From NCBI RefSeq assembly GCF_001439665.1, contig NZ_LMAK01000011.1:1-64000 (forward strand): 64,000 nucleotides of DNA. Reading direction: 5' to 3'. Under the pieces are notes generated by a model. That model searched no databases, had not been told where the DNA came from, and worked only from the letters and a program-made list of their open reading frames with translations. This document shows, in pieces, positions 1 to 8,628 of the stretch (position 1 is its first letter; every line of letters starts with the position of its first letter). The DNA is from Formosa algae (GTDB lineage Bacteria; Bacteroidota; Bacteroidia; Flavobacteriales; Flavobacteriaceae). Made by a program: the position numbers and the translations under genes.

Positions 1-623
1 TTAAAGATATGGCGGCTTTTAAAACCCATTTTAAAACCAACAGTTTTTTGGGGACACACATTGTCCAGGAATATATCGAGGGCTATGATATAGATTGTAG
101 CGTGTTGTGTAAGGCAGGCGAGGTGTTAGCTTACACCATCCAAAAAGGAGTTGTGAATAATTCGTCTGATTTTGCACCTGCCTATGCGCATGTATTTTTG
201 CAAAAACCCAAATTATTTGCGGTGGTACAAAAGTTAATACAAACCCTTGGTTGGTCGGGTATTGCCCACATAGATTTAAGATTTGATGTGAACACCCAAG
301 ATTTTAAAGTAATAGAAATTAATCCGAGGTATTGGTTGTCCTTAGAAGCGTCTTTACATGCAGGCATTAATTTTCCAGATTTACACCATAAACTCAGTAT
401 TGGAGAAACATTTACAGCACCAGAATGTAACGAATCTACTTATTACAGTTTAACGGGTGTCAAATTAAAAGTTAAACAAGGCAAAAGTGTTTTATTCCGT
501 TGGAAATTCTTAAAAACAGATACGGCCATTCAGTTTTTCTTAAAAGATCCGGTGCCCATACTTTACAAATTCTTTGCATTACGATTCGGGAATGTGAATG
601 CTGTACATAATTTTGATGAATGA
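1..623 (+). CDS. ATP-grasp domain ligase, C-terminal part (cut by window edge)
   Basis: The frame is open from the left edge (first whole codon at 3), so the N-terminus is missing; the ATG at 9 has nothing marking it as a real start. About 206 residues remain and look like the C-terminal half of an ATP-grasp ligase: VQEYIEGYDIDCSVL (nucleotide-binding strand), GWSGIAHIDLRFD, and EINPRYWLS, which carries the metal/ATP-binding Glu-Asn pair. Enzymes of this fold activate a carboxylate with ATP and join it to an amine or thiol. The substrate-defining part is not visible. The last 60 residues lie outside the core domain. Fold assignment is firm; the specific reaction is unknown. Confidence 0.8.
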   Translation, partial: KDMAAFKTHFKTNSFLGTHIVQEYIEGYDIDCSVLCKAGEVLAYTIQKGVVNNSSDFAPAYAHVFLQKPKLFAVVQKLIQTLGWSGIAHIDLRFDVNTQDFKVIEINPRYWLSLEASLHAGINFPDLHHKLSIGETFTAPECNESTYYSLTGVKLKVKQGKSVLFRWKFLKTDTAIQFFLKDPVPILYKFFALRFGNVNAVHNFDE

Positions 624-693
624 TATTTAAATTGTAATACTACATGAGATAGGTTGCAAACATGTTGCACAACCTTGTAACTCAGCCTAAGAC

Positions 694-1500
694 TTAGTTA
701 ATAGCGTCAAGAAAGGGTTTCATGTCTAATAATTCTATATCATCACGTTTGCGCAATTCTCTTAAAAACCAACCTTTATGTCCAGCACCATAGGTAATGA
801 GGATGCGCTTACCTTGATAGCGGTGTGTTTCTAAAGCTTTTTCAATGTTCCAATAATGCGCAATATTAATATTTTCCCAGCCACCTAAACCAAGCTCATC
901 ATTAAACAATGTGTTATAGGGTTGTAGTCTAATATCTTGAATACTATCATAGGTGTTAGTATGTATAAAATACGGATCGTTTACTTTTCCGCTCGCTTTA
1001 TATAATGAATCTGAACGTTTATTGCCTTTTACATATGTGGCCCAATCGTTAGCTCTAGACGAATCTTGACGAATAGCTCTTAGTTTTTGTCCGCGTTCTA
1101 CAGCCATCGTTCGTGTCCATCCCGCAGTTGGAATAATCTCAAAATCCATCTCTTTAGATAATGGAAACACCACATCTACATATTCCGGAAACTGTCTGGT
1201 ACGTGGTTCAGAAATACTATCGTCTTTTTTAAATCCGTCCATCGCTATTTTAAAGTGTTTTGGAGGAATTTCGGTGAGTATGTAATCTGGATTGATCTCA
1301 CGAATTAACCGTTTTAAATACTCAACATTGTACACACTATCGGTTAGATGCCCTCCATGGATGGTTCCTAACACTACGACTTCATTTTTTAATGGTGCTG
1401 AAGTGTCTGTGGTGTCACTTTTAGTCTCGGCTTGCTTACAGCTTGAACTTGCAAAAAGGAGAAGGATTACCAAATAGACGTTAATGCTTAGGTGTTTCAT
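694..1500 (-). CDS. Lipoprotein of the TraB/GumN-TIKI-like type (tentative)
   Basis: 268 residues. The N-terminus is a lipoprotein signal (hydrophobic stretch, then ASSSCKQ, with lipidation expected on that Cys), so the protein should sit in the envelope. After a polar linker comes VVVLGTIHGGH at about residue 41, then DYILTEIPP, and near the C-terminus YGAGHKGWFLRELRK. This GTxH / ExP / GAGH arrangement resembles TraB/GumN/TIKI-type putative metallohydrolases. It is transcribed alone; the ATG at 1500 places the signal peptide correctly. The family match is from motif memory, and substrate and activity are unknown. Confidence 0.6.
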   Translation of the reverse strand: MKHLSINVYLVILLLFASSSCKQAETKSDTTDTSAPLKNEVVVLGTIHGGHLTDSVYNVEYLKRLIREINPDYILTEIPPKHFKIAMDGFKKDDSISEPRTRQFPEYVDVVFPLSKEMDFEIIPTAGWTRTMAVERGQKLRAIRQDSSRANDWATYVKGNKRSDSLYKASGKVNDPYFIHTNTYDSIQDIRLQPYNTLFNDELGLGGWENINIAHYWNIEKALETHRYQGKRILITYGAGHKGWFLRELRKRDDIELLDMKPFLDAIN

Positions 1501-1647
1501 GAGAGGATATTTTTTTTAGAATCACTGAAGATATGAAAAACGAAGAGAACAGCCTTAGTGTTTTTGGGTTCTGCGGGATTTTAAGTTTCCTCAATTTTTT
1601 ATATGAATATATAAATTATAAATTAGTTTAGTAATAAACTCTACAGT

Positions 1648-4337: not shown

Positions 4338-5372
4338 ATGAGTAAATGCAAATTATGTTTAGTAAACGATGCAAATAAAAAAGGGTCTCATATTGTACCT
4401 GCTTTTATATTAAAAACTTTATTTGAGAGAAATAAAGAATTTGTAGTATCAATAGGACAACAAGTTGTTGAAAATCATGTTGGTAGAGATTTGACACCTG
4501 AAAAAATTCAGGAATTTATGGGAAGAGATTTAACAGATGAGGAAATTGACCAAAACCAAATTCCTTTTATAGAAGACTATATAATCTGTACTAATTGTGA
4601 AAATAGATTTGGACATATAGAATCTATTTATGCCTCCAAAATACATCAAAAGATAAATGATAATGAATGTAAAAGTGATGAAGTAGTAGATTCAAAGAAA
4701 AATGGAGGTTTAATTTCCTTGTTTTGGTATAGCGTAATATGGAGATATTCAATTAATTCAAATAATCCTTTTAATCTTAAAGATAAAGATTTGAAAAAGT
4801 TAAGATGTTATTTAAATGATAATTTAAAAGATACACAAGAAGAATTGAAAACTCAAATACAAGAATGTATTAAAAATAATGTTCCTTACCCAATTGGTGT
4901 TTTTTTTAATTCTAATCAAATCAAAAGGATTTCAAGCAATACTGTAGTTGGCATGCCCAATTATAAAAACCCTTACTTACTTTTTTTTAATGAATATATA
5001 ATTATATTATATTTCAAATCAACCCAAATTAATGGAATGGCACATAGTTTTTATGGATTAGAAGAATCTTTTAGTTATAAAGAATTAATTAATTTCAACT
5101 ATAATGGTTTCAAAATTGGAATTATAAAAAATAAAACTTTCGAAAAAATTAAAGAAAGCATTTTCTTGTTATTTGCTCGTATTAAACATGAAAGATTTGT
5201 AAGTATGTTCACTTTCGTTGCTAATCATTATGAACTAGCTTTTAATGGTGAACATATAAAAGCTTTTATTGATAGAATATTGTCAGATGACACTCATATA
5301 GCTGATAAATATGATAGAACAAGGGTTTTAACTATTTTAATGGAAGAATTGAACAAATTGCCTAAACGATAA
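4338..5372 (+). CDS. HNH-like treble-clef protein, partner of the STAND-type nuclease
   Basis: 344 residues. The N-terminus has CKLC (C4, C7), then SHIVPAF (H18), then CTNCENRFGHIE (C84, C87). CxxC, an H-x-x-P strand and a second CxxC is the metal-binding layout of treble-clef HNH proteins, although Ser replaces the usual Asp before the His, so nuclease activity is uncertain. The remaining about 230 residues are Lys/Asn/Ile-rich with no family I can name; FWYSVIWRYS at about residue 132 is aromatic-rich. It lies 10 bases before the next gene in the same direction, so the two are almost certainly co-transcribed. It is very AT-rich. It could be an effector, a DNA-binding adaptor or a sensor. 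Confidence 0.7.
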   Translation: MSKCKLCLVNDANKKGSHIVPAFILKTLFERNKEFVVSIGQQVVENHVGRDLTPEKIQEFMGRDLTDEEIDQNQIPFIEDYIICTNCENRFGHIESIYASKIHQKINDNECKSDEVVDSKKNGGLISLFWYSVIWRYSINSNNPFNLKDKDLKKLRCYLNDNLKDTQEELKTQIQECIKNNVPYPIGVFFNSNQIKRISSNTVVGMPNYKNPYLLFFNEYIIILYFKSTQINGMAHSFYGLEESFSYKELINFNYNGFKIGIIKNKTFEKIKESIFLLFARIKHERFVSMFTFVANHYELAFNGEHIKAFIDRILSDDTHIADKYDRTRVLTILMEELNKLPKR

Positions 5373-5382
5373 TTATAATTTA

Positions 5383-8300
5383 ATGAGACCATCAAGAAAT
5401 GCATTTATTGGATACACATATCAAGAACAAATAACCTTTTTGTTTTTGGTAATGATGGATGTTCAAAGAAAATTTAATTCATTAGAGATAGAAGCTGATG
5501 TTGAAAATAACCTTGATGATATTAAAATTCAAAATGGTGAGAATTCAATGTTTTTCCAAATTAAAGACTATGATGAAATTACTTTAGAGGATTTGCAATT
5601 TAATGCGAAAGAAGTTTCCATTAAAGGAAAAAAACATCTATTAGCAAGTGATAGTGCCAATGTACTTATTTTCAAAAATATTGATGTTGCCACCAATTGT
5701 AAATATTATGGGTTGCCAGCACTTAAACAAAATAATGTATATATCATTTCATTATCCAGACTTGAGGCTGATAATATGATAAATAAATTGTATGCATTTA
5801 ATCAGAAAAGGAAAATTACTATTGATAGATTCTTTAAAAATCATCTAGATAAAAGAATATTAAAAATCAATAAAGATGATTTACCTATTATAAAAGTATT
5901 CGACACAAAATTACTTGAAGAGACAATTAACATTGGTAAAAAACATTTAGAATTTTCTAATATACTGCATTTAGAAGGAAAGCCTGGAATTGGTAAGAGT
6001 CATTATGTCATTACGCTATCAAAGATATATAACCAAAATATTGTTTATCGTTTTTGGATATCTGAACAAGACAAAGAAAAAAATGCGAGATTAGAATATG
6101 TTAATTTTATATCTGATATTTCAAAAAAACTATTTCATGATTATTCTTTTAAAAGTGAAGTAGAAATAATTAATGAAATAAAAAAATCCAAACGTGTATT
6201 TATTATAGATGGTTTAGACCATGTAGAAAACTATAATAATGAGGATTTAGGGAAATTTGTTCAATTCATTAATAAACTTTCATTAGAATGCAAGACCATA
6301 GTTCTGTCTAGGCCATTAAAATATAATACAAACTGGAATAAACAGATTTTAACAAATTGGAATGAAAGGGAAACTAGAAAAGTATTAATTGAACTATACC
6401 ATATCGATGATTATTCTATTGGAAGTCAGATTTACAATCTAACAAATGGTTATCCAATATTAGTTAGATTTATAAGTGAACATTATAAAGCTTATAAGAT
6501 TATTCCAATTCTTGAGAAATTAAAAGGTATTGAAGATTATTATAGCCAAATATTAAAAGACGTAAAAACTAAAACTGCTTTAACATTATTCTTAACTAGT
6601 AGAAGTTTTTTTATGAAATCGGAATTAAGTCTGTTTTTATCTGGAGAATTCTTAAGTTACATAAATGAATTTATTAACGCATATCCATATTTGTTTGAAA
6701 TAAGATTAAATAGAGTTTCTCTGTTTCATGATAGTTTTAATAAATACTTAAGAGAGTTAAATATTGACTATTCTGAAAGAAAAAACAAAGTAGACAATAT
6801 AGTTTATCAATCTATTTATGATTGCAAAAAAAGATTCATGTCTAGGTTTTCATATTTTGATTTAGAAGCTAAAAAAAAGCTAAGTATTATTAAAAAATTC
6901 TCCTCTATTAAGATATTTAAGGAAGTAGTAAAAGATTGTATAGATTTTGAAGCTATAAGGTCATTCTATTTTCAAATAAGAGAATCGCTTAATGATATTT
7001 TGTATAAAGAACTGAGCATTAATAATTATTATGAATTAACTTTAATACTAAATATTGTAGGTAGAGACCATATTGCAACTTATAATACATTTCTGTATAC
7101 CTATACTAAATCATTGATTTATAATGGTTATGAAATTGAAAATATCACAAGCTCTGAATATTTGTTTGGAATGTTTCATTATGTATTAGAGAATGATTCT
7201 ACAATTCTTTATAATATAACTAGTAATGATAATTATAGTACAAATTACTTTTTAACTAGTTTAGAAAACGATGTTTTTTCTGAAGAGTATTTTTTTGAAA
7301 AGTATAAGAATCCATTTATATTAAAAAAAGATATAGGGTATTATCTTGAAGATGAATATAAAAGAAGAGAGGATGTTATCAATATTTTAGTTAATCTTTA
7401 TATACATGGCACAGTTGAAGAATCATTAGAAAACTTATATAAAAGTATTAAAACATTCATAGATTCTAATGAAAACGAAGGTATTTCTATTATAGATGAA
7501 ATTCTAGAGGAGTATGAATGGAAAAGTTACCATGGTAGATGGATTTTAAATGATTCAAAAAAAATATTATTATCACTTGGTCTAATCACTTCTCATAACG
7601 ATTTCATTAATCTAAGCTTAAAAAAATATATAATCAAAAATGCTCATTTAGGTTCGTTTGATATTTGTACTAATATTTTAAGTTATATCAGATTAACATT
7701 ACACCAAACAAGAAAAACAGATATTTCTAGTATTGGTGATTTTTGGACAATGTATCATAAACACAAAGATTATTCTGTAATTAATATAGATGTTGCATTG
7801 AAAGTTTTTGAGGAAAAAGGTTTTATAACGGAAGAAGAATCTATAAGAAAAGTGGTCTTCACACAATCAATGTCAGACAAAGGTATTAGACATCTTTTAT
7901 CAAGTTATATCAAAATTCATTCTCCAGATATTATTGACAAAATTTTAAAGCAGTATCATTTTAAAGAACTAAACATATCATGGTTAGATTTACCGTCAGA
8001 GTATATTAATGCTTTACCAGATAAAGTGTTTAATTACTCAATGTATCGTTTGTTAGAATATAATGGACATCGAACAGAAATTGATTTTGATAAAATTATA
8101 AATGTTTTTCATTCAAAAAAATGGAGTAAAATATTAAATGAATTAAAGTTTCATAGATATAAAATTAGAATAAATGAAAAAAGTAAAGAGCTAAAAGAAC
8201 TAAAAAAAATAAAAATTACTCTTAACATTTTTAAAGAAGAGGAAAAGGATAACTTTTATGATAGTTCTTATCGATATAATAACGGTATTTTGGGGATAAA

Positions 8301-8628
8301 AGATAAAAGTTATATACATGAAAATAAATTATCTGTATGCGATGTATCAGGTTATTTAGATGGTAATTATTCTGCATTAGCTGAACTAGATATTTATAAA
8401 ATTTTCAATAAAAATGATGTTAAAAAGAATTTAAAAGCTGTTTTCTATAACGCTATTTTAGGCAAAATTAATAGTATAAATATGTTTGGAAACTTGTACT
8501 ATTTTGTTGGGAACTTACCCAAATTAACTGGCGATTACGATGATGTTTCAAATATTAGTGAGTTATACGAAAGTTTTAATACTTTTATAGAACTATCACT
8601 TTTAAATGAACGCAACCAGACCTCATAG
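5383..8628 (+). CDS. Cap4-like nuclease / STAND NTPase fusion, putative antiviral protein
   Basis: 1081 residues. Residues 1 to about 150 look like a PD-(D/E)xK nuclease of the Cap4/DUF4297 type: GYTYQEQ near the start, D45-D46-I47, then Q59-I-K61 as the catalytic core. Residues about 185-450 form a STAND/NACHT-like P-loop NTPase: Walker A GKPGIGKS (199-206), Walker B FIIDGLDHVE (273-282), then VLSRP and a winged-helix-like region. Residues about 480-1081 are Leu/Ile/Tyr-rich and probably helical, the usual place for a target-sensing module in Avs-type proteins, but I recognise no repeat. In the known family, ligand binding drives oligomerisation and switches on the nuclease. Base composition is extremely AT-rich (10 G/C in 7201-7260). 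The last codons lie in a dispersed repeat. Domain calls for the first 450 residues are good; the defence role is inferred. Confidence 0.8.
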   Translation: MRPSRNAFIGYTYQEQITFLFLVMMDVQRKFNSLEIEADVENNLDDIKIQNGENSMFFQIKDYDEITLEDLQFNAKEVSIKGKKHLLASDSANVLIFKNIDVATNCKYYGLPALKQNNVYIISLSRLEADNMINKLYAFNQKRKITIDRFFKNHLDKRILKINKDDLPIIKVFDTKLLEETINIGKKHLEFSNILHLEGKPGIGKSHYVITLSKIYNQNIVYRFWISEQDKEKNARLEYVNFISDISKKLFHDYSFKSEVEIINEIKKSKRVFIIDGLDHVENYNNEDLGKFVQFINKLSLECKTIVLSRPLKYNTNWNKQILTNWNERETRKVLIELYHIDDYSIGSQIYNLTNGYPILVRFISEHYKAYKIIPILEKLKGIEDYYSQILKDVKTKTALTLFLTSRSFFMKSELSLFLSGEFLSYINEFINAYPYLFEIRLNRVSLFHDSFNKYLRELNIDYSERKNKVDNIVYQSIYDCKKRFMSRFSYFDLEAKKKLSIIKKFSSIKIFKEVVKDCIDFEAIRSFYFQIRESLNDILYKELSINNYYELTLILNIVGRDHIATYNTFLYTYTKSLIYNGYEIENITSSEYLFGMFHYVLENDSTILYNITSNDNYSTNYFLTSLENDVFSEEYFFEKYKNPFILKKDIGYYLEDEYKRREDVINILVNLYIHGTVEESLENLYKSIKTFIDSNENEGISIIDEILEEYEWKSYHGRWILNDSKKILLSLGLITSHNDFINLSLKKYIIKNAHLGSFDICTNILSYIRLTLHQTRKTDISSIGDFWTMYHKHKDYSVINIDVALKVFEEKGFITEEESIRKVVFTQSMSDKGIRHLLSSYIKIHSPDIIDKILKQYHFKELNISWLDLPSEYINALPDKVFNYSMYRLLEYNGHRTEIDFDKIINVFHSKKWSKILNELKFHRYKIRINEKSKELKELKKIKITLNIFKEEEKDNFYDSSYRYNNGILGIKDKSYIHENKLSVCDVSGYLDGNYSALAELDIYKIFNKNDVKKNLKAVFYNAILGKINSINMFGNLYYFVGNLPKLTGDYDDVSNISELYESFNTFIELSLLNERNQTS

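Follow-up and report, generated by a model that had tools for sequence, protein, structure and literature searches.

A STAND protein of Formosa algae with a nuclease head and a conserved C-terminal half free of known repeats, a candidate sensor domain

In PMC12931631, STAND proteins are described as having a central NTPase, a C-terminal sensor and an N-terminal effector, Avs1-4 as sensing terminase or portal proteins, and Avs5 (SIR2-nSTAND3) as a carrier of nSTAND3. PMC12169576 describes bNACHT25 and bNACHT32 (clade 6, PD-(D/E)XK-NACHT-NCH1), which join a PD-(D/E)XK effector to a STAND NTPase and a helical C-terminus. Here we analyse a gene of Formosa algae with a comparable layout, located in a stretch of 64,000 nucleotides (assembly GCF_001439665.1, contig NZ_LMAK01000011.1, positions 1 to 64,000; hereafter, the window). 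The open reading frame (ORF) at 5383..8628 (stop codon included; forward strand, as are all window features below), for which we found 36 related loci, encodes a STAND protein of 1081 amino acids (aa) that consists of a PD-(D/E)xK-type nuclease, an NTPase with a winged helix and then residues 481-1081, the C-half. An initial annotation of positions 6820-8628, which run from residue 480 (6820 lies within its codon) to the stop, had proposed that this half is an uncharacterised sensor. We consider it probable that the protein is an Avs-like immune nuclease in which the C-half serves to detect a conserved ligand, derived from or altered by the invader, and to keep the switch off. The family is not described in the literature consulted, including the accessible portions of PMC12931631, PMC12169576 and PMC8195603, in a search that did not go by a family-specific accession.

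Thirty of the 36 related loci align with the window protein from end to end, and the layout is uniform over the resulting 31 members: the part before residue 481 is 475-503 residues long and the C-part 565-622, with a median of 601. Sixty-nine alignment columns are invariant in all 31 members, 52 of them in residues 1-480 and 17 in residues 481-1081. We assign residues 1-160 (5383..5862) to an N-terminal PD-(D/E)xK-type, putatively Cap4-like nuclease domain, in which D45, D46, Q59 and K61 are invariant; we take D45 D46 and Q59-x-K61 (a QxK motif) to be its active site. The STAND NTPase core, residues 161-330 (5863..6372), contains a Walker A motif GKPGIGKSH (199-207; G199, G202, G204, K205, S206 and H207 invariant), a Walker B motif IIDGLDHVENYN and SRP at 309-311 (R310 and P311 invariant), and an invariant series in and after Walker B (D276, G277, D279, H280, V281, E282, N283, Y284 and N285). 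By predicted secondary structure and consensus, residues 331-480 (6373..6822) complete the switch with a helical part that we read as including a winged helix; GYP (356-358) and HDS (449-451), which we name GxP and (M)HD-like motifs, are invariant throughout.

Among the best 25 of 46 Pfam families listed for the members at an expect value (E) of 0.1 or less, NPHP3_N is matched by all 31, AAA_22 by 30, NACHT by 20 and nSTAND3 by 13 (best 1.7e-6). The window protein alone falls below the cut-offs, both for NPHP3_N (23.7 bits, cut-off 24.8) and for NACHT (12.4 bits, cut-off 26.7); it matches no NCBIfam model at E<=0.1 and, by sequence, no solved chain at E<=1, and in PADLOC its one match, to HEC-03A, is weak (E 0.0032). 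Over all 31 members, 11 PADLOC families are matched at E<=0.1, among them mad8 (17 members), MkoA (9), SAVED3-SAVED_PDDEXK (3) and LmuA (2, best E 2.5e-7). Because of the NPHP3_N, AAA_22, NACHT and nSTAND3 matches, a structure search headed by STAND proteins, and the motif consensus, we assign the protein to the STAND NTPase superfamily: it is a P-loop NTPase with STAND-type motifs, flanked by an effector and a C-terminal region.

The full-length model (predicted local distance difference test, pLDDT, 87.6; predicted template modelling score, pTM, 0.73) was compared with solved structures in the Protein Data Bank (PDB). Foldseek placed terminase-bound Avs3 first (E 5.4e-11), followed by the tetratricopeptide (TPR) STAND protein 6mfv (8.0e-9) and, within the first five rows, portal-bound Avs4 (PDB 8dgf, AVAST type 4; 1.5e-7), with ORC, MalT and plant nucleotide-binding leucine-rich repeat (LRR) receptors (NLRs) in lower rows. 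Aligned with VIA, residues 9..1080 of the model span 10..1533 of Avs3 (750 residues, Z 12.2, root-mean-square deviation 37.8). The C-half sits behind a STAND switch in a model whose Foldseek list is headed by Avs3 with terminase, which upholds the initial placement of this half at the target-recognition position. In the comparison with Avs proteins that the initial annotation called for, Avs3 is the first Foldseek match of the whole model; the C-half by itself reaches only Z 4.0 against Avs3, and its Foldseek list contains neither Avs3 nor Avs4.

Like the window protein, Avs3 (SeAvs3, PDB 8dgc; AVAST type 3) has an N-terminal nuclease, a STAND NTPase and a long C-terminal region in that order, but it is about 2090 residues long as opposed to about 1080; Avs3a is not one of the 11 PADLOC families named above, and Avs3b had no match at E<=1e-10 in the window's genome, to which that search was confined. 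Avs4, which was compared by structure search only, differs in its length of about 1540 residues in solved chains and in its absence from the Foldseek list of the C-half. The nSTAND3 matches are shared with Avs5, but the window protein begins with a nuclease-type domain rather than SIR2, and no TPR or Sel1 match is shared by the C-halves of the members. The bNACHT25/32 proteins are likened here by description only, and differ in that the NACHT match of the window protein is weak. The curated Avs2 model is matched by one of the 31 members, and only at E 0.056; no Avs2 proteins for comparison were found in the 20 relatives searched.

Modelled alone, the C-half (6823..8625; a predicted sensor and autoinhibitory domain) reached a mean pLDDT of 90.7 and a pTM of 0.90, with 35 helices and three short strands: it is helical from residue 481 to about 893 and mostly helical beyond, the strands falling at 899-901, 927-931 and 947-950. 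These helices agree with the irregularly spaced, Leu/Ile/Tyr-rich ones noted initially. In Pfam the C-half of the window protein matched BLM10_N only, below cut-off (E 0.26 with the whole protein, 0.014 with the C-half alone); BLM10_N is a segment of a proteasome regulator. At E<=1 the 31 C-halves touched 31 Pfam families, and among the best 25 listed, the commonest was Cpf1_PI-like (4 of 31, best E 0.087) and the strongest were IQ_SEC7_PH (3 of 31, best 5.3e-5) and PglD_N (2 of 31, best 5.8e-4), which we take not to be repeat families. HEAT-type matches were single and weak (HEAT_5MP1_2, 0.006; SDA1_HEAT, 0.025; one member each), and no TPR, HEAT, WD40 or LRR family among those listed was shared by members. 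Nor did comparison of the C-half profile with itself detect internal repeats (best off-diagonal E 0.19), and against solved chains this profile found no match below E 0.35. The initial statement that TPR, WD40 and LRR motifs are missing is therefore borne out, there being neither a shared repeat family nor an internal repeat.

Structural searches with the C-half gave similarly little. In the PDB, Foldseek gave 32 matches with E values up to 10; the best had E 1.2, none passed E<=0.001 and probabilities did not exceed 0.09, and DSR2-tube stood at noise level (rank 29, E 8.1). Among the viral models of BFVD it gave 53 matches up to the same limit, again none at E<=0.001 (best 0.53). In a VIA comparison with 655 chains, four reached Z>=5 in a first pass and none reached 8. 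CRM1, which scored highest (Z 6.1), is aligned over 78 residues where the domain begins, so that a HEAT-like start is possible; exportin and importin rows covered 191-214 residues at 5.6-8.1 A (Z 4.2-5.5). The rows of this analysis fall largely within positions 1-446 of the C-half model and barely test its last 155 residues. The lack of a PDB match may come from PDB coverage, and the description of this half as new or highly diverged holds as far as the solved-structure library goes. Its interpretation as a solenoid is not supported: no repeat signal was found, and the best structural match is confined to those 78 initial residues.

The STAND gene is present in one copy in the window's own genome and is rare around it. 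Among related genomes only the window itself matched (1 of 148), and a family sample added one NTPase-only match (L010; 2 of 397 with the window). In a phylum sample, 7 of 395 genomes matched. Besides the window these were a genome with a complete relative, another with two fragments at contig ends, and four whose matches we judge to be chance or NTPase-only. Two of these four were inspected and rejected as relatives, L004 being by eye a TonB-receptor-like ORF and L006 a different STAND-type ORF; of the other two, L005 has the same match as L004 and L007 lies in a 70-aa frame with a stop. Scans of viral and genome contigs with the window protein alone found no relatives, and a two-row profile of the window protein and the first complete relative was needed to recover the 36 loci from the species genome collection. 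Judging from genus names, 16 of these presumably belong to Bacteroidota and 17 to Bacillota or Tenericutes. Six were dropped from the alignment (L012, in two frames; L038, short; L040-L043, incomplete), L002 was kept out as apparently the same locus as L039, and L018 and L031 were retained though shorter (1044 and 1047 aa). The L012 gene (7995-11238) is split over two reading frames, through either a sequencing error or decay of the copy. Since the searches were seeded with two short peptides close to the window's own sequence, the sample of relatives is biased to near kin. Conservation over its whole length in 30 relatives shows that the C-half is not a chance stretch of ORF.

Neither the window protein nor the L061 member found a match in phage and plasmid records, nor did the two-row profile in viral contigs; with the 31-row profile, two viral-contig loci were found, L060 (4692-7916) and L061 (7989-11222), both from IMG/VR. 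Searching with the C-half alone retrieved 3 of the 395 genomes of the phylum sample, all with members of this protein family (two complete, one cut by a contig end), and one full-length locus in viral contigs. Reuse of the C-half as a module without the switch was thus not seen in these 395 genomes or viral contigs, in scans that depend on short seeds and on the samples.

The initial annotation had further pictured the C-half as diversifying in an arms race. Over the 31 rows, conservation scores are 0.565 (residues 1-150), 0.610 (170-480) and 0.503 (481-1081), and relative rates on one tree are 0.89 for the nuclease, 0.79 for the NTPase and 0.87 for the winged-helix part. Within the C-half, blocks 481-600 (6823..7182; rate 0.80, 5 of 119 columns invariant) and 721-840 (7543..7902; 0.85, 10 of 120, with the consensus motifs YxxRKDY at 791-797 and SEKGxR at 831-836) are as slow as the switch, block 841-930 (7903..8172; 1.17, 2 of 90) is intermediate, and blocks 601-720 (7183..7542; 1.50, 0 of 115), the fastest, and 931-1081 (8173..8625; 1.29, 0 of 145) are faster (1.5x and 1.3x). 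In the six closest pairs, non-synonymous and synonymous divergence (dN/dS; NG86, rounded; pairs 3-5 built from the same three sequences) was 0.03/0.10, 0.04/0.16, 0.07/0.60, 0.07/0.72, 0.09/0.82 and 0.14/0.62 over residues 481-1081, and 0.02/0.09, 0.08/0.28, 0.05/0.53, 0.06/0.49, 0.07/0.76 and 0.12/0.57 over residues 1-480, giving ratios of about 0.1-0.3 in the C-half, as in the N-half. Only one of 48 region-by-pair cells had dN above dS (0.04 vs 0.03), and it overlaps an exchanged tract. The C-half is under purifying selection, as averaged by region, an average that leaves room for positive selection at single sites. Pairwise identities between regions correlate at 0.75-0.92, which indicates that the C-half is not freely swapped against the N-half.

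Diversification of the C-half in an arms race is thus not borne out, given these ratios and correlations and its 17 of 69 invariant columns; the C-half is only mildly less conserved than the switch, without being fast-evolving overall. The initial annotation had held that equal conservation would argue against a sensor, which is too strict: in two Avs3 proteins, members of a validated sensor family, identity drops only mildly, from 28.9% over residues 1-600 to 23.0% over 601-2091. (These two were found beside Avs3b matches and match the Avs3a model at 0 and 1.1e-210; one was checked against SeAvs3 of 8dgc.) On the whole, then, what was initially observed is confirmed, and its interpretation is supported for the missing known repeats and the STAND position but not for the solenoid and the arms race. 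Two pairs of relatives show local departures within the C-half. L035 (5132-8437) and L046 (8001-11327) diverge by about 10% mostly, but the part equivalent to residues 631-930 of the window protein carries only 5 differences in 900 bases, a clean gene-conversion-like exchange inside the C-half. L030 and L044 are 70-86% identical in other blocks and 52% identical in 931-1081, which suggests a replaced or fast-diverging terminal module.

The computations give a three-part architecture with intact nucleotide-binding and nuclease motifs and a conserved, confidently predicted C-half without a known repeat family, in a predicted structure that as a whole resembles terminase-bound Avs3. Under an Avs-like mechanism, the C-half would act as both sensor and autoinhibitor, keeping the STAND switch closed at rest; once the C-half binds a conserved ligand that comes from, or has been altered by, the invader, the NTPase would exchange its nucleotide and oligomerise, gathering the N-terminal Cap4-like nucleases, which would cut DNA and stop the infection, following the STAND scheme as outlined in PMC12931631. 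The ligand would be evolutionarily constrained, and the system would serve anti-phage defence. Because it is conserved and not fast-changing, the C-half may detect a feature that is hard for invaders to change. Judged from rates alone, blocks 601-720 and 931-1081 are the likeliest candidates for a specificity surface, and a role in coupling binding to the switch is more likely for the slow blocks, 481-600 and 721-840. We favour this mechanism because of the order of the Foldseek matches, the NTPase models matched, the invariant motifs, the C-half model, purifying selection, and the defence neighbours and GC content detailed below. Several results weigh against it. The match of the whole model to Avs3 rests mainly on the N-half: its Foldseek TM-score is low (0.21 by query length), and Avs3 ranks 22nd by VIA Z, behind MuB (14.8), ORC/Cdc6, NRC and other switch-aligned NTPases; the searches described above yielded no significant structural or sequence match of the C-half to any known sensor; the Cap4_nuclease Pfam model is matched weakly in 6 of 31 members (best E 0.0026); and a claim of defence-island enrichment is not supported, because of the counts per family, the generic enzymes among the matches and the lack of a control.

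A special case that overlaps with the Avs-like mechanism is that the C-half is a compact, highly diverged Avs3-type sensor for the large terminase subunit. In its favour, VIA aligns residues 8..600 of the C-half model with 625..1534 of Avs3 chain B (225 residues, 4.9 A, Z 4.0), the longest alignment in the C-half list, and the whole-model alignment ends at the same place in Avs3; however, Z 4.0 is common and at noise level for this tool, neither Avs3 nor Avs4 is among the 32 Foldseek matches of the C-half, and its profile aligns with the two Avs3 proteins over 30 columns only, at E 0.58. With whole-protein profiles the alignment is limited to the NTPase (E 0.0015, HHalign probability 17%). The structural and profile signals are too weak to claim homology of the C-half to the Avs3 sensor, and we regard this special case as unlikely. 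Equally improbable, in our view, is that the C-half acts as a guard, monitoring a host factor or a cellular state disturbed by phages, which overlaps with an invader-altered ligand: it would explain the purifying selection over the C-half (dN/dS of about 0.1-0.3, slow blocks at NTPase rates), and there is a precedent in bNACHT25, a PD-(D/E)XK STAND protein that requires host DnaJ according to PMC12169576, but the spread over two phyla would demand an equally conserved host factor, and by eye no constant partner gene adjoins the STAND gene in relatives.

The invariant polar residues of the C-half allow two further readings. R488, D521, R561, S590, R770, K795, D796, S831, K833 and G834 are among its 17 invariant columns, and through such residues it might bind nucleic acid or a nucleotide, or be catalytic, which is very doubtful, as no enzyme family or nucleic-acid-binding fold was convincingly matched. 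It is also quite unlikely, though slightly less so, that residues 481-1081 represent a new, non-repetitive class of pattern-recognition domain, present in two phyla and detecting a chemically invariant ligand through a conserved polar centre; possible ligands would then include a nucleotide, a nucleic-acid intermediate and an unvarying site of a phage enzyme. If real, such a class would stand apart from the sensors of Avs proteins and NLRs, which are built from repeats.

Ten bases upstream of the STAND gene lies a gene for a 344-aa Cys/His protein (4338..5372), a possible operon partner. By eye, this protein contains a CxxC...SH..P and a second CxxCE motif (zinc/HNH-like), and it weakly matches phrog_26326 (3.3e-7). 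The two-gene cassette (4338-8628) has 24-25% GC compared to 33% in the window, which is consistent with lateral acquisition. As an obligatory partner the 344-aa protein was rejected, since tblastn (E<=0.1) over those loci of relatives that were examined matched only the window's own. Besides the window's, 6 of 296 genomes have a relative of this protein, with no STAND ORF visible by eye in the surrounding 3-4 kb, and one of these genomes has both types of gene about 91 kb apart. Just upstream of the STAND gene of L022, a different Cys/His protein (7203-7940, 246 aa, CxxC...EHVPPK) recalls the window's neighbour; it matched no PADLOC or Pfam family.

Neighbouring genes mostly vary between relatives, as judged by eye. 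Four of ten neighbours picked by eye match PADLOC models at E<=0.001: GajA beside L020, HEC-06/Orf5 (GmrSD-like) beside L026, and both ThsB and, weakly, SIR2 beside L046. Of 131 neighbour ORFs, 129 were scanned and touched 173 PADLOC families at E<=1e-15; the best 25 listed include GajB, type I restriction endonuclease, PDC-S50 and PDC-S07 (two ORFs each), and any one family is matched by at most 2 of the 129. Generic enzymes are among these matches, the first ORF, a methyltransferase by Pfam, matching 'mad2'. In Pfam the same 129 ORFs contain three ResIII, three AAA_21, three phage integrase and two recombinase matches. On the prophage-like contig of L061 the STAND gene follows two recombinase-like ORFs near tail- and lysis-like ORFs, and in L060 it adjoins a SIR2-like ORF, with an integrase-like ORF further on (all by eye). 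These neighbourhoods fit defence and mobile contexts. L011 (5755-7998) and L013 (10073-12310) have similar-looking neighbours of 748 and 746 aa on opposite sides of the gene, sharing LWGGR.xPIIPV by eye, with no PADLOC match and no Pfam match above cut-off.

Within the Avs- and NLR-like kind, the new element is a C-terminal domain that has no convincing match among solved structures. If this C-half is a sensor, it would give the bacterial counterparts of NLRs a recognition domain that lacks known repeats, and its conservation over Bacteroidota and Bacillota would predict a conserved trigger that is open to direct screening. The case would also caution against relying on hypervariability to recognise sensors, as both this C-half and the C-parts of the two Avs3 proteins are only mildly less conserved than the switch.

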